Below, piece after piece: positions 425 through 16,385 of a stretch of DNA of 21,693 nucleotides; positions within the stretch are counted from its first letter, which is position 1; the number at the start of each line of letters is the position of its first letter. The stretch is taken from IMG/VR virus record IMGVR_UViG_3300025897_000102, positions 1 to 21,693 of that record; one strand, written 5' to 3'. The position numbers and the translations under genes are program-made. This DNA is from a virus. The notes beneath the pieces were generated by a model. The model was not told the DNA's origin. It was given only the letters and a program-made list of their open reading frames with translations, and searched no databases.

Positions 425-763
425 ATGGCAAAGGATAAAGGTAAATTCTTAGAAGTGTTTGCATCTAAATTAGGGAATGTCAGTAAGGCATGTGAAGCTG
501 CTCAGATTAGCAGACAAACATACTATGATTGGATGAAAGACAAAGAGTTCTCAGGAAAGGTTGATGAAGTAAGAGAAGGACTATTAGACTTTGCAGAACA
601 TCAGTTACTATCTAATATAAAAGATGGTAAGACTGCTGAGATATTATTCTACTTAAAAACTAAAGGTAAGAAAAGAGGTTACATAGAAAGACAAGAGGTT
701 GATACAATAGGTGAGAATATGTTTGAGGTTAAGATACTAAAGAATGAAACAGATACAGACTAA
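425..763 (+). CDS. Terminase small subunit
   Basis: This 112-residue protein has a helix-turn-helix near its N-terminus (residues about 13-40: GNVSKACEAAQISRQTYYDW), followed by a helical region (DFAEHQLLSNIKDGKTAEILFYLK) and a basic stretch KTKGKKRGY. This is the usual layout of small terminase subunits that recognise the packaging site and form a ring that feeds DNA to TerL. It overlaps the large subunit start by 20 bases, which fits translational coupling. The bases before ATG are A-rich (AAAAAAGGAA), not a classic ribosome binding site at normal spacing. The position directly before TerL makes the assignment firm, although small subunits diverge quickly. Confidence 0.85.
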   Translation: MAKDKGKFLEVFASKLGNVSKACEAAQISRQTYYDWMKDKEFSGKVDEVREGLLDFAEHQLLSNIKDGKTAEILFYLKTKGKKRGYIERQEVDTIGENMFEVKILKNETDTD

Positions 764-1907
764 TGTTGTATTTGAGTTACTAGAATCTAACCAATCTAAA
801 ATAGTAGCATTACAAGGATCAAGTAGGGCAGGAAAAACTTATAATGCATTACTATGGATTATATTTAGTTATTGTCATAAGAATACTGGAAAGGTAATCA
901 GTATTTGTAGAAAGACACTTCCAAGTTTAAAAGCAACTGTATTAAGAGACTTCCTAGAGATACTTAGAAATAATGAGCTGTATTCTGAAATCTATCACAA
1001 CAAAACATCTAATGAGTATTGGTTAAATGGAAACCTAATAGAGTTCTTCAGCCTGGACATGGGGAGCAGGGTTAGAGGAAGAAAAAGAGATATGCTGTTT
1101 ATTAATGAAGCTAATGAGATAGACTATGAAGCATGGAATCAATTACTATTTAGAACAGATGGAAGAATAAATGGTGTAATCCTAGACTACAATCCACATG
1201 ACCAGTTCCACTGGATATATGACAAAGTGCTAGAGAGAGATGATTGTAATCTATACATTACTACATTTATGGATAATCCATTTATTTCTGAAACATTAAA
1301 GAAAGAGCTATTAAGATTAAAAGATACTGATCCTGATTACTGGAGAGTATATGGATTAGGTTTAAGAGGACAGAGTAGGTCATTGGTGTTTAAGTTTCAT
1401 GTATGTGATAGTATACCTGCTACAGCTAAACTAATATCTAGAGGATTAGACTTTGGTTTTGCATCTGATCCATCAGCTCTGTGTGCAACTTATATAGATG
1501 GTGATAATATGTACACTCAAGAATTGCTTTATGAAAAAGGTTTGACTAATCAAGACTTAGCTAAAGAGTTTGTAAGATTAGGATTAGATAGGAGAGATGA
1601 GCTATTTGCAGATTCAAGTGAACCTAAATCAATAGAGGAGATTCATAGAATGGGATGGAATATAAAAGGTAAAAAGAAATATGAAATCAATTATGGAATA
1701 GACCTGATCAGAAGATACAAACTACATGTTACTAAAGATAGTACTAATGCATTGAAAGAATTAGAGAACTATAAATACATAGAAGATAGAAATGGTAATC
1801 CAACTAACAAACCAGTAGACAAGTTTAATCACTTCTGTGATGCATTAAGATATAGTGTAGTTCATAAACTATCCTATCCTAACTATGGAAGGTATGCTAT
1901 AAAATAA
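744..1907 (+). CDS. Terminase large subunit (packaging ATPase and nuclease)
   Basis: This is the DNA packaging motor protein; it drives genome translocation through the portal and cuts the concatemer. The N-terminal ATPase domain shows Walker A GSSRAGKT (residues 25-32) and Walker B MLFINEAN (117-124, with the catalytic Glu in NEAN). The C-terminal RNase H-like nuclease domain shows RGLDFGF (Asp236), FADSSEP (Asp290) and NHFCDALRY (Asp366), a complete set of acidic metal-binding residues. The length of 387 residues is slightly short but normal for the Terminase_3/6 group. The ATG at 744 lies inside the small-subunit gene. The stop codon at 1905-1907 touches the T-tract of the opposing minus-strand terminator, so the two transcription units converge tail to tail. 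Confidence 0.96.
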   Translation: MKQIQTNVVFELLESNQSKIVALQGSSRAGKTYNALLWIIFSYCHKNTGKVISICRKTLPSLKATVLRDFLEILRNNELYSEIYHNKTSNEYWLNGNLIEFFSLDMGSRVRGRKRDMLFINEANEIDYEAWNQLLFRTDGRINGVILDYNPHDQFHWIYDKVLERDDCNLYITTFMDNPFISETLKKELLRLKDTDPDYWRVYGLGLRGQSRSLVFKFHVCDSIPATAKLISRGLDFGFASDPSALCATYIDGDNMYTQELLYEKGLTNQDLAKEFVRLGLDRRDELFADSSEPKSIEEIHRMGWNIKGKKKYEINYGIDLIRRYKLHVTKDSTNALKELENYKYIEDRNGNPTNKPVDKFNHFCDALRYSVVHKLSYPNYGRYAIK

Positions 1908-2637: not shown

Positions 2638-3309
2638 ATGGAACTAGAAGTGAAAGTGCCTGAGAACCTATCAGAAATAAGCCTGGACCAGTATCAAAAA
2701 TACTTAAAGGTACAAGCAGGAGATAATGATGAGATGTTTATAGCACAAAAAATGATAGAAATCTTTTGTAATGTAGACCTTAAATATGTTACTAAGATGA
2801 GATGGAAAGATGTAAGTGAAATCACTAGCACACTATCCAACATGTTTGATGAGGATAATAAGTTTATTAATAAGTTCACATTAGATAGTGTACAATATGG
2901 ATTCATTCCAAACTTAGATGAGATTACATTTGGTGAGTTTGTAGATTTAGATTCATACTTAGGAGACTGGCAAGAAATGCATAAGGCAATGTCAGTTCTA
3001 TATAGACCTATTGACATACAAGCTAGAGGAAGATATAATATAAAAGAATATGATGGCTCTATAAATGACCACCTTAAAGAGATGCCTTTATCAGTAGCAT
3101 TAGGTGCTGTTTTTTTTTTGTTGAATTTAGGAAAAGAATTATCTCAAGTTATGATGGATTATTTGGACAGGGGGATTCTCAAGGATCATTCACAAGTGAA
3201 GGAGGGTTTAATGCAAAATGGAATTGGTACTCATCAATTTACACAGCAAGTCAGGGGAATCTTGAAAAGTTTGAATATATCACCAAACAACATGCACATA
3301 AAGTTTTAA
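2638..3309 (+). CDS. Tail assembly chaperone, zero-frame product
   Basis: This 223-residue soluble helical protein resembles the first tail assembly chaperone (lambda gpG-like role) of Bacteroidota phages. Conserved-looking features are the ISLDQYQKYL start, LDEITFGEFVDLDSYLGDW near the middle, HKAMSVLYRP, and MPLSVALGAVFFLLNLGKEL. Chaperones of this kind coat the tape measure before the tail tube assembles. It opens the plus-strand tail block, after the divergent minus-strand island, and an AAAAGCATTATATA element lies before its ATG. The gene contains a T10 run at 3110-3119 from which a second, longer product can be made in the -1 frame. The zero-frame continuation after the run also looks genuinely coding, so both products are expected. 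Confidence 0.7.
   Translation: MELEVKVPENLSEISLDQYQKYLKVQAGDNDEMFIAQKMIEIFCNVDLKYVTKMRWKDVSEITSTLSNMFDEDNKFINKFTLDSVQYGFIPNLDEITFGEFVDLDSYLGDWQEMHKAMSVLYRPIDIQARGRYNIKEYDGSINDHLKEMPLSVALGAVFFLLNLGKELSQVMMDYLDRGILKDHSQVKEGLMQNGIGTHQFTQQVRGILKSLNISPNNMHIKF
3110..3120 (+). promoter_or_regulatory. Slippery T10 run for -1 frameshifting
   Basis: Ten Ts followed by G are read in the zero frame as GTT TTT TTT TTG. The heptamer T TTT TTG is a perfect slippery site in which both tRNAs keep pairing after a one-base backward slip. The -1 frame opens at 3078 (after a TAA at 3075-3077) and stays open to 3383. Slippage by RNA polymerase on the run would give the same product. Confidence 0.7.
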
Positions 3310-3383
3310 TGTATTTAGAGTATGTTACAGAAAAACAAATATTAGAGAATCAAAAAATAAAAAGAAGTTATGGCAAGAAGTGA
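3120..3383 (+). CDS. -1 frameshift extension of the tail assembly chaperone (GT-like)
   Basis: These 87 codons in the -1 frame continue the chaperone after the T10 run, giving a fusion of about 248 residues in place of the 223-residue zero-frame product. The frame has no ATG, GTG or TTG between 3078 and 3308, so it can be reached only by frameshifting. Its content is protein-like: FNAKWNWYSSIYTASQGN, then FEYITKQHAHKVLMYLEY, then a charged Lys-rich end. The W-W-Y-IY...A-G-...F...T pattern is what I know from the second chaperone segment of Bacteroidota phages. The stop at 3381-3383 lies 14 bases inside the next gene (ATG at 3370), as in a coupled operon. In lambda the equivalent gpGT fusion is needed for tail assembly; the same role is inferred here. 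Confidence 0.75.
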   Translation, partial: VEFRKRIISSYDGLFGQGDSQGSFTSEGGFNAKWNWYSSIYTASQGNLEKFEYITKQHAHKVLMYLEYVTEKQILENQKIKRSYGKK

Positions 3384-3846
3384 TCAGGGAATAAGAGGTT
3401 TTTATTTAGTTACATCAACAATTAAAGATGAGCTGTTGTCAAATCCAAGTATAAAGACTTGTACATTTGGAGATATAACAGATATTGATCTACAGAAACA
3501 AACCATATTTCCTTTAGCTCACATAATTATTGAAGGAGCTACAAATGCAGAAAAAACATTACAATTTAATTTTACAGTTCTAACAATGGAACAAGTAGAC
3601 ACCAACAAACAATTAGATGAAGATTTGTTTACTGGTAATACAAACATTCAAGACATTCTTAATACTCAATTATCAGTTTCAAATAGAATGGTGTCCAGGT
3701 TAAGAATAGGTACATTATCACAAAATGGATATGAGTTAGTAGGTGATCCTACATGTGAACCATTCTTTGACAGGTTTGAAAACATCTTAGCAGGATGGGC
3801 AACTACCTTTACAGTACAAATATTAAATGATATAGATGTTTGCTAA
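3370..3846 (+). CDS. Virion protein, candidate tail terminator or connector
   Basis: This 158-residue mixed alpha/beta protein belongs to a type common in Bacteroidota phages. Recognisable stretches are KTCTFGDITDIDLQKQTIFP, FNFTVLTMEQVD, NIQDILNTQLSVSNRM and EPFFDRFENILAGW. The start overlaps the chaperone frameshift extension by 14 bases. The stop TAA overlaps the next ATG (TAATG at 3844-3848), so translation is coupled. Size, fold type and neighbourhood (beside a gp10-like completion protein) fit a tail terminator or head-tail joining protein. That role is inference; membership of the phage structural cluster is more secure. Confidence 0.5.
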   Translation: MARSDQGIRGFYLVTSTIKDELLSNPSIKTCTFGDITDIDLQKQTIFPLAHIIIEGATNAEKTLQFNFTVLTMEQVDTNKQLDEDLFTGNTNIQDILNTQLSVSNRMVSRLRIGTLSQNGYELVGDPTCEPFFDRFENILAGWATTFTVQILNDIDVC

Positions 3847-5391: not shown

Positions 5392-8300
5392 TGAGTGGAT
5401 ATGAATTATACATAAACAATCAGAGAGTAGAAATATTTGAAGATGAAAGTCTAAGCCTTAATCAAACAATTCAAGATGTTAGGGATGTTTCTAAAGTGTT
5501 TACAGACTTTTCAAAACCTTTTAACTTACCTGCATCTAAAGAAAACAATAAGATATTCAAACATTATTATAGATTTAATTTAGGAACTGGTACATCATTT
5601 GATGCTAGAAAGAAAGTTCCTGCTAGAATAGAGTTAAATACAATACCATTTAAAGAAGGACTTTTAAGATTAGAAGGAGTATCAATAGAAAATAATAAAC
5701 CTAAATCATACAAGGTTACCTTTTTTGGAAACACAGTAACATTAAAAGACACATTAAGAGAAGATGAAATTAACTCATTAAACTGGCTAGACAATTTTAA
5801 CACTACATATAGTGCATCACAAGTTTTAAATCTTTTAACTACAGAGGATGGTTTAGGAGGTACATCAGGTGTTATAGTAGATGATTTAGGAACTAATGTA
5901 ACATACTACAAATCTGTTATCTGTCCTTTAATATCTAACTCAGCTAGATTGTATATGGATGGAGGTATAACTGTTCCATATCAAAATGCAGATGGATCAG
6001 AGAACTTAGAGCTAGGAGGAAACTTAGCACCAACTAATGCAGGATCAGAAACTGCTGCAGATGTTCATGGAGTGTATTTTGAAGATTTAACTTATGCTAT
6101 TCCAGTTCATTTAATTATAAGAGCAATACAAAACCAATATACATCAATCAGATTTAGTGATGATTTCTTTAGTTTAACAAATGGTCCAGAGGGTTATAAA
6201 AAACTATACATGCTTTGTCAAAATACAGAAGGAAGACAGTTTGAAGATATGGGAACAGCTCTAAAACAAGTATCAGGTTTTAGCACAGCACAAGCATTAA
6301 ATAATAAATTAATAGTTTCATTCAATGCAATTTATATTCAAGGATTACCTGAAAGAGATTTTATAACTGGTGTTTTTAGTTTTCAAGCCACATCAGCATA
6401 TCCTGATTTTACAATTAGAGTAAGAAGGGGTGGCACATCAGAAGTATTTTCACAAAACTTTACTGGAGGAACAAATACAACTGGCTCATTTACTGTGTTT
6501 ATGTATAACACATCAGCAGGTTATACAATAGAAATTGAAACTACTACAGCTTTTCAATTATCTAGTTTTACTTTTCAAGCAAGTGATTCAAGTGGTAACA
6601 GCTCTAGCCATCAACTTACAAATGTAATTATACCTCTTGAAAAAGAATTTATAATAAAAGACCATCTACCATCTTTGAAAACAATAGATTTTATTAGTGG
6701 ATTGTTTAAAATGTTTAATCTAACAGCTTTTGAAAAGGATGGAATTATACATGTAAAAACTTTAGAGGAGTTTTACAATTCAGGTTCTATTAGAGATATT
6801 ACAGAATTTGTTGATCCAAGTTCTACTGAAATAGATAAAGCATTGCCATATGAAGAAATTATTTTTAAATATAAAGACACAGATACAAAGTTAGCAAAAC
6901 AACATAGTCAGCTAAGTGGATCAGATTGGGGTTCATTGAAATACAACAATAGTGAATTATTAGACAGCAACAACAAAGTGTTCAATGTAGAATTGCCATT
7001 TGCACATTTAAAATATGAAAAACTACTAAATGGTAGTAATGAAACAGAAATACAAGTAGGATGGATGGCAAATGAAAATGGAGAACCTTACTTTAAAGAT
7101 GCAGTTTTATTTATTCCAATATTTCAACAATCAGCTAATGATATTAGATTTCTAGAACAGAAAACTGGAACTGGAGGAATAAATGACTTTGGTGATTTTT
7201 GGATGCCAAGCAATTCAGTAAGTATTCAGCCTGATGTAAACAAAGAAAACATACATTTTAATTTAGAGTTAAATGAGTTTACTAATAGTACTGCTTTTGA
7301 TGAAACATTATTTTTAAAATATTATAGGTTTTATATTCAATCAGTATTTAATAGATCTAAAAGACTAACAAGACTAAATGCAAGATTGCCAAAAAAGTTT
7401 ATTTTAAATTACAGTTTAGCAGATAGTGTAACTATTAACAATGAATCTTATAAAATAAACAGTATAACAACAAATCTACTAAGTGGTGAAAGCCAAATGC
7501 AGTTATTAAATGAAACAGTAGATGTTGCACCTAGCATTAATCCTGATACTGGAGGTGGTGATACAACTCAGCCTGAAGGAACTCCTGAAACTAATGTACT
7601 TTACTTTGAGGATTGTGCTAACTTAGGAACATTTTATGAATCATCTTCTACAATAGAAACTTTTAATTTTGTAAACAATAGAAGGCTAACAGAAGGTGGA
7701 AACTTTTATATTGTTAAAGGAAATATAGGAGCAGGAACATATACAGCAAAAACAGTTAGTGATACTGGATTCTCAGGATGTCCTGAATCAACTACTCCTC
7801 CTACATTATATTATGGTTTAAAGAGGTGTTCAGATAATGAGAGTACTTTTAGAACATCAACAGCAGTAACAAATCCTACATATGCTATAACAGAAAAAGT
7901 AGAAGATTCAAACAATGTTGCATATGTGATTATTAACAGCAATACAACAACTTCAACTATTGTAAATAATACATCAGGACAACCAACTGTAGTATCAGCA
8001 AAAACTGTATCAGCTTTTAATCCTAAGGTATATAATTGTACACAAGGTCCAACAACATATTATTATAGTTTAACAAGATGTGATGGTACTGGAACTGTTT
8101 TATATGGTTTTAGTGGTTCAGCATCAGAAAGTGGGAGCAGAACATACAATAATACATGCTACAACATTGCCTCAACAACAAATACTGGAACTATAGATGT
8201 GAGTAGTTTAACTACTTGTACATGTCCAGTTTATTATTATACATTAAATGACTGTTCTAACACAAGCTCAGTTCAACATTATGGGTTTTCTAATTTATCT

Positions 8301-10106
8301 AATTTAGCAGGAACTGAAAGAACATACAGTGGTACATGTTATTATGTTGCAGCCACAAGTAATACAACTGGTTCAATTAATATAGGAGCTTTATCTACTT
8401 GTACATGTCCATCAGGAGGAGGTACACCTGATCCTGAAAGATACTCATTAAAACTATGTGAAAATGATCAAACAGGATATGTTTCACCTGAGACTACAGA
8501 CCAAATTGATTTAGATATTGATCCTAATGGTGAAACTGGTTCTAGAGTACAGGATGCAAATGGATTTATATATACAGTTATAGGAACTACTACTAACACA
8601 AATGGAATTGTAGGAGCATTAGTTGATTTAGGAAGTAATGGTTGTCCATCAGTAACAGTAACACCTACTACATTTTATTGGCTATTATATAAATGTACTA
8701 CTTCTCAAGGTGGGTTTGTTTCAGAACAGACTACTGCTGAATTAACAGGTATGACAGAAGATCCTGTAAATGGTTCTAGAGTACAAGGACCTGATGGTAT
8801 TGTTTATATTGTATATGGGCAAACATCAGATCCAAGTCAGTATACTGGTGGTATTATATCAGTAGTTAGTTTGAGTGCTACTGGGTGTCCAACAACTCCT
8901 GATCCACCACCTGATATTTATTATTGGGAGCTTAGACAATGTTCTACAAATAATACAGGTTATATATCAGCTCAAACAACAGACCAATTAAGTGATTTAG
9001 CTGTAGGAGAATTTGTTTTTGAAACTGCTACACCAAGTCAAATATATGAAGTAACAGGAACTAGTCAATCAGGTACATCAATTGGAAGTGTAACAAAATC
9101 TACACTAACAGCTTGTCCATTATATTGGGCATTAAAACAATGTGGAACTTTACAAGGTGGATACAGAAGTGGAAACACAACTTTACAGTTGCCAAATCTA
9201 GTTGAAAATGATCCTAATGGAACAAGAGTTCAAGATCCTAATGGAATTTTTTATATAGTTGTAGGTACTACAAACTCAACTGCTAATGTAGGAACTGTAA
9301 CAGACACAGGTGCTACTGGATGTCCTACACCACCACCAGTTATAAACTATTATTCATTACAAAAATGTGATGATGGTACAACTGGTTGGAGATCACAACA
9401 AGATAATACACAGATTACTTTTAACACAAATGATATTGTATCTTTTGGTAATGGTGGAACTACATATAAAGTAGTAGGATTGGTAACATCAGGAAACAAT
9501 GCAGGACCTATGAGTCCTACTTCATTTACAAGTTGTCCTACATCACCACCACCTACTCCACCACCACCACCACAAGGTCCATATTATGCTCAGTTCATTA
9601 CTTGTGATGATCCTGCAGGTGCAGTTTTATATGTTGTAAGTCAATCACAACAAATATCTTCATGGTGGGTTATACAAAGTGGAGGACCAACAGGATATGA
9701 ATGTTATAGGTGGGTTACAAATTTAGAAAATGCAGTAAATCCACAAGACATAACAAACTTCACTATATTTTCATCAGCAACTACATCAGGAGAAAATTGT
9801 ATAGAGTGTAATGAAAATGCACCTACACCACCTACACCACCTACTCCTCCTCCTACACCAATATGTGGAAGTCAAAGTTTATTTTATGCATCAACTGCTC
9901 CTGATTTATGTAACCAAACTACACCTAGAACTGTTTATATGGATGCAAATACTATAGAACAAGCAAATACTATTTATACAGATTCATCTTGTAGTACTAC
10001 ATTGTCTGTTGCTAGGTATTTTGCAGACCAACCTTCAGGTAACTATTATTACTGGTCAGGAACTAACCTACAAGGTCCATACACTAACAGTTGTCAATCA
10101 CAATAA
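5391..10106 (+). CDS. Giant modular tail / receptor-binding protein (1571 aa)
   Basis: Residues 1 to about 710 form the conserved tail domain, starting with FEDESLSLNQTIQDVRDVSK and TDFSKPFNLPASKENNKIF, a beginning I know from tail proteins of flavobacterial phages. After a Gly/Thr/Pro hinge (about residues 715-735) come about eleven modules of 57-80 residues. Most begin with an aromatic pair and 'L..C' (such as YYSLTRC, FYWLLYKC, LYWALKQC) and end in 'GCP' or 'CTCP'. Each thus has a Cys near both ends, probably a disulfide. Linkers become Pro-rich toward the end (PPPTPPPPPQ, and TPPTPPTPPPTP). Modules 5, 6 and 8 share GSRVQ/GTRVQ cores. The design suggests a long, flexible host-surface binder. 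A prolyl 4-hydroxylase-like gene follows directly. Coupled to the previous gene by TAATG at 5389-5393. Confidence 0.8.
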   Translation: MSGYELYINNQRVEIFEDESLSLNQTIQDVRDVSKVFTDFSKPFNLPASKENNKIFKHYYRFNLGTGTSFDARKKVPARIELNTIPFKEGLLRLEGVSIENNKPKSYKVTFFGNTVTLKDTLREDEINSLNWLDNFNTTYSASQVLNLLTTEDGLGGTSGVIVDDLGTNVTYYKSVICPLISNSARLYMDGGITVPYQNADGSENLELGGNLAPTNAGSETAADVHGVYFEDLTYAIPVHLIIRAIQNQYTSIRFSDDFFSLTNGPEGYKKLYMLCQNTEGRQFEDMGTALKQVSGFSTAQALNNKLIVSFNAIYIQGLPERDFITGVFSFQATSAYPDFTIRVRRGGTSEVFSQNFTGGTNTTGSFTVFMYNTSAGYTIEIETTTAFQLSSFTFQASDSSGNSSSHQLTNVIIPLEKEFIIKDHLPSLKTIDFISGLFKMFNLTAFEKDGIIHVKTLEEFYNSGSIRDITEFVDPSSTEIDKALPYEEIIFKYKDTDTKLAKQHSQLSGSDWGSLKYNNSELLDSNNKVFNVELPFAHLKYEKLLNGSNETEIQVGWMANENGEPYFKDAVLFIPIFQQSANDIRFLEQKTGTGGINDFGDFWMPSNSVSIQPDVNKENIHFNLELNEFTNSTAFDETLFLKYYRFYIQSVFNRSKRLTRLNARLPKKFILNYSLADSVTINNESYKINSITTNLLSGESQMQLLNETVDVAPSINPDTGGGDTTQPEGTPETNVLYFEDCANLGTFYESSSTIETFNFVNNRRLTEGGNFYIVKGNIGAGTYTAKTVSDTGFSGCPESTTPPTLYYGLKRCSDNESTFRTSTAVTNPTYAITEKVEDSNNVAYVIINSNTTTSTIVNNTSGQPTVVSAKTVSAFNPKVYNCTQGPTTYYYSLTRCDGTGTVLYGFSGSASESGSRTYNNTCYNIASTTNTGTIDVSSLTTCTCPVYYYTLNDCSNTSSVQHYGFSNLSNLAGTERTYSGTCYYVAATSNTTGSINIGALSTCTCPSGGGTPDPERYSLKLCENDQTGYVSPETTDQIDLDIDPNGETGSRVQDANGFIYTVIGTTTNTNGIVGALVDLGSNGCPSVTVTPTTFYWLLYKCTTSQGGFVSEQTTAELTGMTEDPVNGSRVQGPDGIVYIVYGQTSDPSQYTGGIISVVSLSATGCPTTPDPPPDIYYWELRQCSTNNTGYISAQTTDQLSDLAVGEFVFETATPSQIYEVTGTSQSGTSIGSVTKSTLTACPLYWALKQCGTLQGGYRSGNTTLQLPNLVENDPNGTRVQDPNGIFYIVVGTTNSTANVGTVTDTGATGCPTPPPVINYYSLQKCDDGTTGWRSQQDNTQITFNTNDIVSFGNGGTTYKVVGLVTSGNNAGPMSPTSFTSCPTSPPPTPPPPPQGPYYAQFITCDDPAGAVLYVVSQSQQISSWWVIQSGGPTGYECYRWVTNLENAVNPQDITNFTIFSSATTSGENCIECNENAPTPPTPPTPPPTPICGSQSLFYASTAPDLCNQTTPRTVYMDANTIEQANTIYTDSSCSTTLSVARYFADQPSGNYYYWSGTNLQGPYTNSCQSQ
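7596..10103 (+). repeat. Array of about eleven Cys-flanked modules in the giant tail protein
   Basis: Approximate module bounds are 7596-7784, 7806-8039, 8058-8228, 8229-8411, 8439-8648, 8673-8891, 8919-9119, 9120-9326, 9348-9539, 9582-9809 and 9861-10103. Modules 1-9 each open with a hydrophobic/aromatic strand leading to a Cys and close with a Cys, usually followed by Pro. Modules 3 and 4 are close copies (both with YGFS, TCYN or TCYY, and a CTCP end). Modules 5, 6 and 8 share a second pattern. Modules 10 and 11 are more divergent. The array looks like domain duplication followed by drift. Confidence 0.75.
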
Positions 10107-10116
10107 AATAAAAAGA

Positions 10117-10734
10117 ATGATTAAAGAAGTAGAAAATTTTATAGATAAAGCAGAAGCAGATCACTTAATGTATTTAATAGATAAATTTGCACATAAATCT
10201 ACAGTTGCAGGTTCTAAAAATCAATACAGTAAATTAGATACTGCTAGAACATCATACTCAGCAACATTAGATAGTAAAAATCCTACTATTAAAAAGATTC
10301 ATCAAAGAATTGCTAAATATTTAGGTGTGCCTTTTAGTAAAGGAGAAGTGTTACAAGGTCAGAGATATGAAAAAGGTCAATACTTTAGAGAGCATCCTGA
10401 TTACTTTATAGGAGAACACTATGATATGAATTGTTTGTCATCAGGAAACAGAACTTATACATTTATGTTGTATTTAAATGATGATTTTACTGGAGGTACT
10501 ACAAACTTTAGACATCTAAAAAAAGAAATACAGCCAAAAAAGTACAAAGCTGTAATTTGGCACAATTTACATATGGGAAAACCTGATGAATATAAATTGC
10601 ATTCAGGTGAAGATGTAAAAGAAGGTACAAAATATATAGTAACATCATGGTGGAGAGAGAATAATTGGAATGGATCAGATGATTACAAAGAATACCAAAA
10701 ATTATTAAAAAAATCTCAATTAAGTATTATATAA
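10117..10734 (+). CDS. 2-oxoglutarate/Fe(II) oxygenase, prolyl 4-hydroxylase-like
   Basis: This is a 205-residue enzyme of the P4H-like 2OG-Fe(II) dioxygenase family, which hydroxylates protein side chains (commonly proline) using O2, 2-oxoglutarate and Fe2+. The complete metal and cosubstrate set is visible: His93 and Asp95 in REHPDYF, His162 in KLHSGEDV, and Lys172 in EGTKYIVTSWWRE, the expected C-terminal strand for 2-oxoglutarate binding. The jelly-roll core also has TYTFMLYLNDDFTGGTTNF. I chose the ATG at 10117 because earlier in-frame positions lie inside the preceding tail gene (stop 10106). The gene sits directly behind a tail protein with poly-Pro linkers and before the tape measure. 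Modification of that tail protein is a reasonable guess, but host targets are equally possible. Confidence 0.88.
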   Translation: MIKEVENFIDKAEADHLMYLIDKFAHKSTVAGSKNQYSKLDTARTSYSATLDSKNPTIKKIHQRIAKYLGVPFSKGEVLQGQRYEKGQYFREHPDYFIGEHYDMNCLSSGNRTYTFMLYLNDDFTGGTTNFRHLKKEIQPKKYKAVIWHNLHMGKPDEYKLHSGEDVKEGTKYIVTSWWRENNWNGSDDYKEYQKLLKKSQLSII

Positions 10735-10739
10735 GTAGC

Positions 10740-10895
10740 ATGTTAAAGAACATAATAGACCTCTTACAAGTAGTGAATGGTGAAACTGAAAGAATAAAGT
10801 TTGCACAAGGCTCTAAATATCTTCCTGATAATTGGAAAGATGGTTTAAAGATTGCTAAAAGAATGGCTAACTGGGAAATAAATAAAAACAAATGA
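10740..10895 (+). CDS. Small hypothetical protein coupled to the tape measure gene (51 aa)
   Basis: An ATG at 10740 opens a 51-residue frame that ends in TGA at 10893-10895, overlapping the tape measure ATG at 10892 as ATGA. The product has an N-terminal amphipathic helix (LKNIIDLLQVV) and a basic, aromatic C-terminal part (YLPDNWKDGLKIAKRMANW). It has no membrane span. ATTATATA begins 14 bases before the ATG. The tight coupling suggests the protein works with, or regulates the level of, the tape measure. The family is not recognised. The gap between the oxygenase and the tape measure would otherwise be an unusual 157 bases. Confidence 0.65.
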   Translation: MLKNIIDLLQVVNGETERIKFAQGSKYLPDNWKDGLKIAKRMANWEINKNK

Positions 10896-12541
10896 GTGTT
10901 ATAAAAAAAATACAGTTACTTTTTCAAGTAGATAATACAGAGGCTAATGAAGCTATTGAAGAAACTGCTCAAGAAGTCAAGCAGGTTGAAACTAACATGG
11001 AGGATGTAGCTGAAACTGGTGATATATTTACTGGTGGAATGATATCACAATTTAAAGGAGTAGTAAATAGTGTAAAAACAGCAGTAGCTAGTTTAAGAAC
11101 TTTAAAAGGAGCTTTGATTGCTAGTGGTATTGGACTTTTTGCAATAGGTCTAGGATCTGTAACAGCAGCATTTACAAATTCTGAAGAAGGTCAAGATAGA
11201 TTTAATAAGTTGATGTTAAGTTTCAATGTTATTGTAGGTAACTCTATTGATATTCTAGAAAACTTAGGTAAATCTATTTTAAGTGCAGGTAAAATATTAG
11301 GTAAAATTTTTACTGGACAGATAGGAGCAGCAGCTTTAGAGTTTGACAATCTTAAAGAAAGTGTAGGTGATACAGTTGAAGGGATAAAAGACTTTGGAAA
11401 AGAAACTGCTAAAGAAATAAAACAAGCAAGATTATTATCAGACCTAAGAGCAGCAGCAGATAAAGATGAAAGAAAACTAATAATTGATAGAGCAGAGGCA
11501 GATAGAGTAAGAGCAGATTTATTAGAAAAAGCAGTTGATAGAGATAGATTTTCAACTCAAGAAAGAATACAGTTTCTAAAAGATGCTAGTGCTTTGGAGG
11601 AAACAATTACAAATCAAGAAATAGATTTAGCACAAACTAGATTAGACAATCTTAAATTACAAAACAGTTTTGGTCAAAGTAAAAAAGAAGATTTAGATGC
11701 AGAAGCTCAATTAACAGCAGAGTTAATAACACTTGAAACTGCAAGGCTAACAAAACAAAAAGAGGTAACTAGTCAAATCTTAGCATTAAAAACTGAAGAA
11801 AAAGCAGCTAATGATGCAGCAACTGCAGCAGCAGAGGCAGAAATAAAAGCACAAGAAGATGCATTAAAATCTTTTGAAGAAAAAGAACTAGAAGCTCTAG
11901 CAATTACAGAAGAATTAAAAACAGAGTTAGCAGTTAGAAAATCTGATGAAAGATATGAGGCTTTAATAAAGTTAGCTAGACAATATGGAAAAGACACATA
12001 TGAACTTGAAACAGCACAAATTTTAGCAAGACAAGACATATTGTTAGCAGCAGGAAAGGATGAAGTAGCTTTAGTAGAAAATACTGAAAAAACAAAACAT
12101 GATGTTCTCTTAAAATTTACTGCAATAGGTTTAGCATTAGCAACAGAAGGATCAAATGCAGGAAAAGCCTTAGCAATAGCAAATGCTTTAATATCAACTT
12201 ATTCAGGAGCAGCACAGGTATTAGATGATAAAACATTACCATTAATAGCAAAGATAGCAGGAGTAGCAACAGTACTTACTACTGGTTTTACACAAATTAG
12301 AGCAATACAGCAAACACAAATACCAGTGCTTAGTGTAGGAGGTGTTTCAGCAGCAGGAGGTTCACCTGCACCTCAAATACAAGCACCTTCATTTAATGTT
12401 GTAGGTGCATCACCAATTAATCAATTAACAGAAGCTATAGCAGGACAACAACAACAGCCAGTAAGAGCTTATGTAGTTGCTAATGATGTTACAACAGCAC
12501 AAAGTGTTGATAGAAATGCAATTCAAACATCAGGAATTTAA
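10892..12541 (+). CDS. Tail tape measure protein
   Basis: This 549-residue protein is largely helical. The N-terminus (IKKIQLLFQVDNTEANEA) and a glycine-rich hydrophobic segment at about residues 72-95 (LKGALIASGIGLFAIGLGSV) match tape measure proteins of Bacteroidota phages. Residues about 170-385 are a charged, Ala/Glu/Lys/Arg-rich coiled coil. A second hydrophobic stretch (about 425-475, with KALAIANALISTYSGAAQVL) is the usual C-terminal tape measure motif. An Ala/Gly/Pro/Gln-rich tail closes it. Tape measures set tail length at about 0.15 nm per residue, which would give roughly 80 nm; this is an estimate only. It is short for the class but complete, and its start overlaps the 51-residue gene. 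Confidence 0.88.
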   Translation: MSVIKKIQLLFQVDNTEANEAIEETAQEVKQVETNMEDVAETGDIFTGGMISQFKGVVNSVKTAVASLRTLKGALIASGIGLFAIGLGSVTAAFTNSEEGQDRFNKLMLSFNVIVGNSIDILENLGKSILSAGKILGKIFTGQIGAAALEFDNLKESVGDTVEGIKDFGKETAKEIKQARLLSDLRAAADKDERKLIIDRAEADRVRADLLEKAVDRDRFSTQERIQFLKDASALEETITNQEIDLAQTRLDNLKLQNSFGQSKKEDLDAEAQLTAELITLETARLTKQKEVTSQILALKTEEKAANDAATAAAEAEIKAQEDALKSFEEKELEALAITEELKTELAVRKSDERYEALIKLARQYGKDTYELETAQILARQDILLAAGKDEVALVENTEKTKHDVLLKFTAIGLALATEGSNAGKALAIANALISTYSGAAQVLDDKTLPLIAKIAGVATVLTTGFTQIRAIQQTQIPVLSVGGVSAAGGSPAPQIQAPSFNVVGASPINQLTEAIAGQQQQPVRAYVVANDVTTAQSVDRNAIQTSGI

Positions 12542-13819: not shown

Positions 13820-13959
13820 TGGCTAAAAACAAGTTCATATCATCTTCAACTTTAATTAAAAAAAAAGTAAGAAGAAAGGGTGTTCATGCTAAAAGTAAGA
13901 CTTCAAAAAATAGAGGATCAGACAATTATGTCAAACCATATAAACAACAAGGAAGATGA
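13819..13959 (+). CDS. Small basic protein in the head block (46 aa)
   Basis: This 46-residue frame begins at ATG 13819, sharing a base with the previous stop, and ends in TGA at 13957-13959. The product is rich in Lys, Arg, Ser and Gln: LIKKKVRRKGVHAKSKTSKN followed by GSDNYVKPYKQQGR. The pattern 'RRKGVHAKSKTSK..., Y, K.Y..QG' is one I associate with very small conserved proteins found beside capsid genes in Bacteroidota and other marine phages. No function is known to me. The high positive charge suggests contact with DNA or an acidic capsid or scaffold face. It overlaps the next gene by four bases (ATGA). Confidence 0.7.
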   Translation: MAKNKFISSSTLIKKKVRRKGVHAKSKTSKNRGSDNYVKPYKQQGR

Positions 13960-16353: not shown

Positions 16354-16385
16354 AAGGGAGATCTAATCAGGTCTCCTTTTTTTTT
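16354..16385 (+). terminator. Strong rho-independent terminator closing the head block
   Basis: AAGGGAGA (16354-16361) pairs with TCTCCTTT (16372-16379) as an 8-bp stem (one G-T pair) with a 10-base loop, and Ts continue without a break to 16385 (nine in all). It ends transcription from the protease-to-tail-tube block and separates it from the portal block. Confidence 0.88.

Follow-up and report, generated by a model that had tools for sequence, protein, structure and literature searches.

In gene pairs of the lambda G/GT type, the G part binds the tape measure protein and the T part binds the tube protein, and both are absent from virions. In lambda, a -1 shift at GGGAAAG near the end of G gives a fusion with the T domain, G itself terminates about 6-8 codons after the slip, and the pair lies in the tail-gene region, flanked by the major tail protein gene and the tape measure gene. 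The gpE/E+E' pair of phage P2 uses a -1 shift at TTTTTTG, a T run and then a G, with E ending about 7 codons past the annotated shift site and the fusion annotated as an essential tail protein. Ribosomal heptamers of the T TTT TTN form require 6 or 7 T's. The homologous gene of the Nonlabens phages P12024S and P12024L (Inhavirus) carries a T9 run and a T-like domain in the -1 frame, and its upstream and -1 pieces are listed as distinct hypothetical proteins, gp38 and gp39. Across annotated phage frameshifts, the mean distance from the slip to the in-frame stop is 26 nt (PMC10885494). Runs of 9 A's or T's also give access to a second frame in Thermus thermophilus dnaX, Shigella spa13 and IS elements, and bacterial RNA polymerase, whose RNA-DNA hybrid measures 9-10 bp, slips efficiently in vivo on 9 A's or T's (reviewed in PMC5009743).

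Here we analysed a 21.7-kb IMG/VR virus fragment (21,693 nt, hereafter the window) in which a comparable gene was found. Its predicted slip would likewise join an upstream G-like domain to a T-like domain within a tail-gene region, but the slip site is a T run instead of the GGGAAAG of lambda, the run comprises at least 9 T's in the family compared with T6 in P2, the zero frame continues for 63 codons after the slip in the window whereas it stops after 25 in P12024S/L, and the gene follows the terminase. We consider it very probable, as the best explanation of the evidence as a whole, that this one gene gives rise to two proteins by slippage at the T run and has a G/GT-like role in the tail; we infer both that the fusion is produced and that it acts as a chaperone. 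Within the literature searched, of which coverage was incomplete, neither a tail chaperone with transcriptional slippage nor the present gene family was described.

Gene layout and neighbourhood

The preliminary description had placed a T10 run inside a chaperone gene, with a -1 frame that is open across it and has no start codon of its own and a zero frame that stays open well beyond it, and this layout was confirmed throughout (Table 1). The zero-frame ORF spans 2638-3309 (223 aa), and the run is flanked by G3109 and G3120 and read in zero frame as GTT TTT TTT TTG. The -1 frame is open from 3078 to 3383, with the translation FFFVEFRKRIISSYDGLF...FNAKWNWYSSIYTASQGNLEKFEYITKQHAHKVLMYLEYVTEKQILENQKIKRSYGKK followed by the stop, and its first ATG, GTG or TTG is the ATG at 3309, so the -1 segment cannot start by itself. 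Standard decoding would yield the 223-aa G-like protein, and a one-base slip at T10 would yield a fusion of ~248 aa in which the helical T-like domain of 88 aa takes the place of the last 63 codons. The whole gene matches only phrog_32199, of unknown function (E=8e-17 for the upstream domain). An AlphaFold2 model of the upstream domain has a pLDDT of ~80-90 over most of its length, and that of the T-like domain is helical with moderate confidence (pLDDT 69). The T-like domain consists of an aromatic start, the motif F..F[RK].R....Y..LF...F..KWGWY.SIY.LA.GD and then a long charged helix.

Table 1. Positions of the frameshifted gene, its parts and its neighbours in the window
Feature	Position	Strand	Remarks
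Terminase large subunit	744..1907	+	Upstream neighbour of the frameshifted gene
G-like upstream domain, 160 aa, common to both predicted products	2638..3117	+	ORF; relatives down to 16-25% identity
T10 slippage run, with T TTT TTT and T TTT TTG heptamers	3110..3119	+	T9-T11 in relatives
T-like domain, -1 frame, 88 codons + stop TGA	3117..3383	+	Conserved motif; helical model
Zero-frame C-terminal extension of the unshifted product, 63 codons + stop	3118..3309	+	Open in nearly all relatives
Next gene, 158 aa, phrog_30964	3370..3846	+	Starts before the T-like frame ends; order shared with Galbibacter and Flagellimonas loci

Both the small and the large terminase subunits are encoded upstream of the frameshifted gene, and the downstream genes match unknown PHROGs, a head-maturation-protease-like protein, a capsid-like protein and a portal; Pfam and NCBIfam searches gave no match for the window proteins. 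The conserved order runs from the terminase through the frameshifted gene, two genes of ~150-190 aa and one of ~320-340 aa to a large tail-type protein, which in the window and in the Galbibacter prophage locus is followed by a tape-measure-like gene (~550 aa; 10892-12541 in the window), assigned by eye from its size and composition and named by no profile. The frameshifted gene thus lies directly after the terminase and ~7.5 kb ahead of the tape-measure-like gene, an order kept in prophage loci.

Several further features of the window were noted. The gap at 1908-2637, between the terminase and the chaperone gene, holds an opposite-strand ORF of 114 aa (2225-2569) that belongs to no known family, whereas the two genes lie almost side by side in the Galbibacter and Flagellimonas loci. 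A 1571-aa protein is encoded at 7600-10106, and the cysteine-containing repeats of its C-terminal half (YY.L..C.......) suggest a repetitive tail fibre. A 2OG-Fe(II) oxygenase (10009-10734; phrog_61, E=4e-23) is encoded after the large tail protein and before the tape-measure-like gene. The only two other T9 runs, at 13858-13866 (- strand) and 16377-16385 (+ strand), are both intergenic.

Conservation of the run and agent of the slip

Using the upstream domain, the -1 domain and alignments of each as queries, we retrieved a few hundred loci, which included 206 distinct relatives with a complete site, mostly found through the upstream domain, and another 79 distinct ones found through the -1 domain alone, many of the latter on contigs already in the upstream-domain set; outside the 206, one locus ended inside the run and one (L197) before it. 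The family falls into two superclades with ~16-25% identity between them in the upstream domain, and the window belongs to superclade 1. The known hosts of this phage group, which is large and nearly devoid of annotation, are Flavobacteriaceae; the named sources were Nonlabens phages P12024S/L, isolate loci of Flagellimonas onchidii XY-359 and Galbibacter pacificus CAA-3, and several metagenome-assembled genomes, with P12024S/L the only cultured phages recovered and none from superclade 2.

The preliminary description had looked to homologues for the same overlap, and they share it, together with an invariant slip site and, in the -1 frame, the same helical domain, whose motif is kept across both superclades down to 24-28% identity. 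A run was present at the same place in 206/206 relatives, as T9 (105), T10 (100) or T11 (1), a count of loci that are not phylogenetically independent, and all 79 relatives found through the -1 domain had T9. The -1 frame lacked ATG, GTG and TTG up to residue 20 in 53/79 relatives.

Homopolymers are error-prone, and the true run could in principle be one T longer or shorter, which would make the gene one continuous frame. One locus does differ between two records: the plasmid records L309 (CP045836.1, Lysinibacillus) and L310 (NZ_CP040811.1, Escherichia fergusonii), which contain a near-identical relative of the phage region, have T8 and T7 at the run, respectively, with other indels besides, and look like contaminating phage sequence with homopolymer errors. 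Against a sequencing or assembly error at the window's run, lengths of 9, 10 and 11 recur in hundreds of contigs and in isolate genomes with an identical frame relation, the zero frame past the run is conserved, and a continuous single-frame G-T gene was seen in none of the DNA loci inspected save one indel-ridden plasmid record. Such an error is extremely improbable, and sequencing error or a pseudogene was ruled out as a candidate by the homologues.

Two groups of weaker or double matches were also recorded. Five BFVD proteins of 226-258 aa (A0A516L611, A0A6J7WDG4, A0A6J5MY57, A0A6J7XA66 and A0A6J5N3F3) match both the G and the T models, and could be in-frame G-T fusions or homopolymer artefacts. 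In Flavobacterium phage 6H (L211, ~10352-10927), the upstream domain has a weak structural counterpart, after which comes an ORF in a different frame; a clean T run was absent from the frames around this weak fold match.

As to the agent of the slip, the preliminary description had named ribosomal slippage at T TTT TTG and polymerase slippage on the run as both workable, and both are still compatible with the data, but that heptamer is one reading of a site at which the family keeps at least 9 T's in varying codon phase, a pattern that fits polymerase slippage at least as well. The run starts at codon position 1 in 15 loci, position 2 in 184 and position 3 in 7, and the flanking codons always extend it to at least 9. 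A homopolymer of this length, the condition for transcriptional slippage, was present in 206/206 and 79/79 relatives; RNA polymerase would add a U on such a run during transcription.

The same G/GT pair could also arise purely from a ribosomal -1 slip at T TTT TTT or T TTT TTG, with the length of the run due to codon or amino-acid preference, a serious possibility against which we incline slightly. An in-phase T TTT TTT heptamer (X XXY YYZ type) occurs in every relative, P2 makes E/E+E' with TTTTTTG, and SD-like motifs were found within 20 nt upstream of the run in 15/59 representatives compared with 5/59 control stretches; the known tail chaperone cases have moreover been described as ribosomal (PMC5009743). 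P2, however, needs just six T's and a G, yet 0/206 runs are shorter than 9 despite varied flanking codons, and a stimulatory RNA structure downstream of the run was absent relative to shuffles (mean z=0.01, n=59 representatives; the model covers hairpins, with pseudoknots outside it). Run length alone is indecisive, since T9 includes the ribosomal heptamer and a preference for V/I/L-F-F-Y/L could lengthen the run. Because the run never has 7 or 8 T's despite three codon phases and no downstream structure is seen, we lean slightly towards a slip that is chiefly transcriptional, and polymerase and ribosome slippage may both contribute.

Coding in both frames past the run

In the relatives, the zero frame stays open for 48 to ~100 codons beyond the run (mostly 54-91), the exceptions being the Nonlabens-phage group, in which it ends after 25 codons, and loci truncated at a contig boundary. 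When the -1 protein was synonymously recoded, a zero frame this open arose with P mostly 0.00005-0.1 per lineage; it stayed open in 0.1-10% of trials for most lineages and in 1.8% for the window. The zero frame is thus rarely open after recoding, yet open in almost all relatives, which is more than expected by chance.

The substitution pattern changes along the gene in the same sense. In an alignment of 33 close relatives, the region upstream of the run had 3.84 substitutions/site at zero-frame position 3 compared with 0.94 at position 2, the region past the zero-frame stop had its peak at position 3 of the -1 frame (1.76), and the overlap zone was flat (1.4-1.9). Over overlap codons 1-20, wobble positions of the -1 frame evolved at 0.16 times the rate of single-coded sequence (p=1e-8); further out in the overlap the values of 0.48 and 0.59 are uninformative, being no lower than that of the tail coded only in the -1 frame (0.46).

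We further compared zero-frame amino-acid similarity across clades with that of synonymously recoded -1 sequences, using the alternate frame of a single-coded region as control. Superclade 1 gave z=9.7, 1.2 and 2.6 for codons 1-20, 21-40 and 41-60 (control up to 2.7), and superclade 2 gave z=14.3, 17.5, 13.9 and 5.3 over codons 1-80 (control up to 6.4). Judged by these comparisons, each of the two frames codes for protein over the first ~20 overlap codons of both superclades, and in superclade 2 dual protein coding reaches to about codon 60, while the outer extension of superclade 1 appears weakly constrained, its constraint visible mainly as an absence of stops. In superclade 2 (L106, L109, L116, L103 and L227-L278), the extension ends in a conserved hydrophobic segment, flanked by lysines or other basic residues, that overlaps the -1 domain (KTKFGKL..LL.SPLWL...I.L.LW..I.KKKK) and is more hydrophobic than the recoded null in 12/21 lineages at P<0.05, looking like a membrane anchor.

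The weaker constraint in superclade 1 bears on whether function is confined to the -1 domain, with the zero-frame extension an unselected by-product and the unshifted protein a G with a dispensable tail. Codons 21-40 of superclade 1 lack excess conservation and codons 41-60 show little, within the control range, the Nonlabens phages dispense with all but 25 codons of the extension, and residues 179-223 of the window protein were modelled with a pLDDT <50. We nevertheless find an unselected extension doubtful in view of the score of the first 20 codons, the values of 14-17 maintained through codon 60 in superclade 2 and the avoidance of stops in many divergent lineages. Collectively, the comparative sequence evidence establishes that both frames are under selection. 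The earlier view of the locus as dual coding and not a broken gene is upheld by the codon-position rates and the cross-clade conservation, with the qualification that beyond ~20 codons the zero frame of the window's clade is weakly constrained.

Proposed role in tail assembly

The gene probably belongs to the tail assembly chaperones and works like G/GT, as judged from its architecture, its synteny and weak matches to tail profiles. The upstream ORF, the conserved slip site and the overlapping -1 frame conserved as a C-terminal extension, which characterize the class, are all present; the gene does not occupy the position between the major tail protein and tape measure genes, which is usual for the class and not strictly defining. 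Weak matches were obtained to phrog_166 'tail protein' in 17/55 members (best E=2e-5) and to Phage_TAC_7 (PF10109) in one member (E=0.03), and the single match with a tail role in a BFVD fold search was a tail assembly chaperone (E=0.039). Profile comparison with lambda G, lambda T and P2 E, which had limited power with single sequences on one side, found no homology, and PDB sequence and fold searches returned nothing significant. The chaperone assignment made in the preliminary description is therefore favoured by architecture, synteny and weak profile matches, and homology to lambda G/T or P2 E, in sequence or PDB fold, was not found. The lambda gpG/gpGT pair suggests a division of labour during tail assembly in which the G part would coat the tape measure protein, with the T part bringing in subunits of the tail tube.

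A frameshifted gene with two products could have another role, for instance as a neck or head-tail connector factor, and its place right behind the terminase, well upstream of the tape-measure-like gene, would suit such a role, as would the lack of detected homology to known chaperones. We regard this as unlikely, given that a gene in a tail cluster that gains a C-terminal extension by -1 frameshifting carries the known chaperone signature and that the phrog_166, Phage_TAC_7 and BFVD matches, weak as they are, point to tail assembly.

With the chaperone reading, a gene present in hundreds of environmental phage contigs, which databases list as phrog_32199 of unknown function or as two unrelated hypothetical proteins, receives a name and an explanation. 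Its long dual-coded overlap is unusual for this type of gene, as the overlaps of lambda and P2 extend for ~6-8 codons. Since the run keeps 9 or more T's whatever its codon phase, the family constitutes a natural, deeply conserved set for telling polymerase slippage from ribosomal frameshifting. We also propose, tentatively and with considerable doubt, that this may be a tail chaperone family that sets its G:GT ratio by RNA-polymerase slippage, instead of or besides ribosomal slippage, and in which both C-termini would be functional, the -1 frame providing a tube-recruiting domain and the zero frame a tail that is anchor-like in one superclade.
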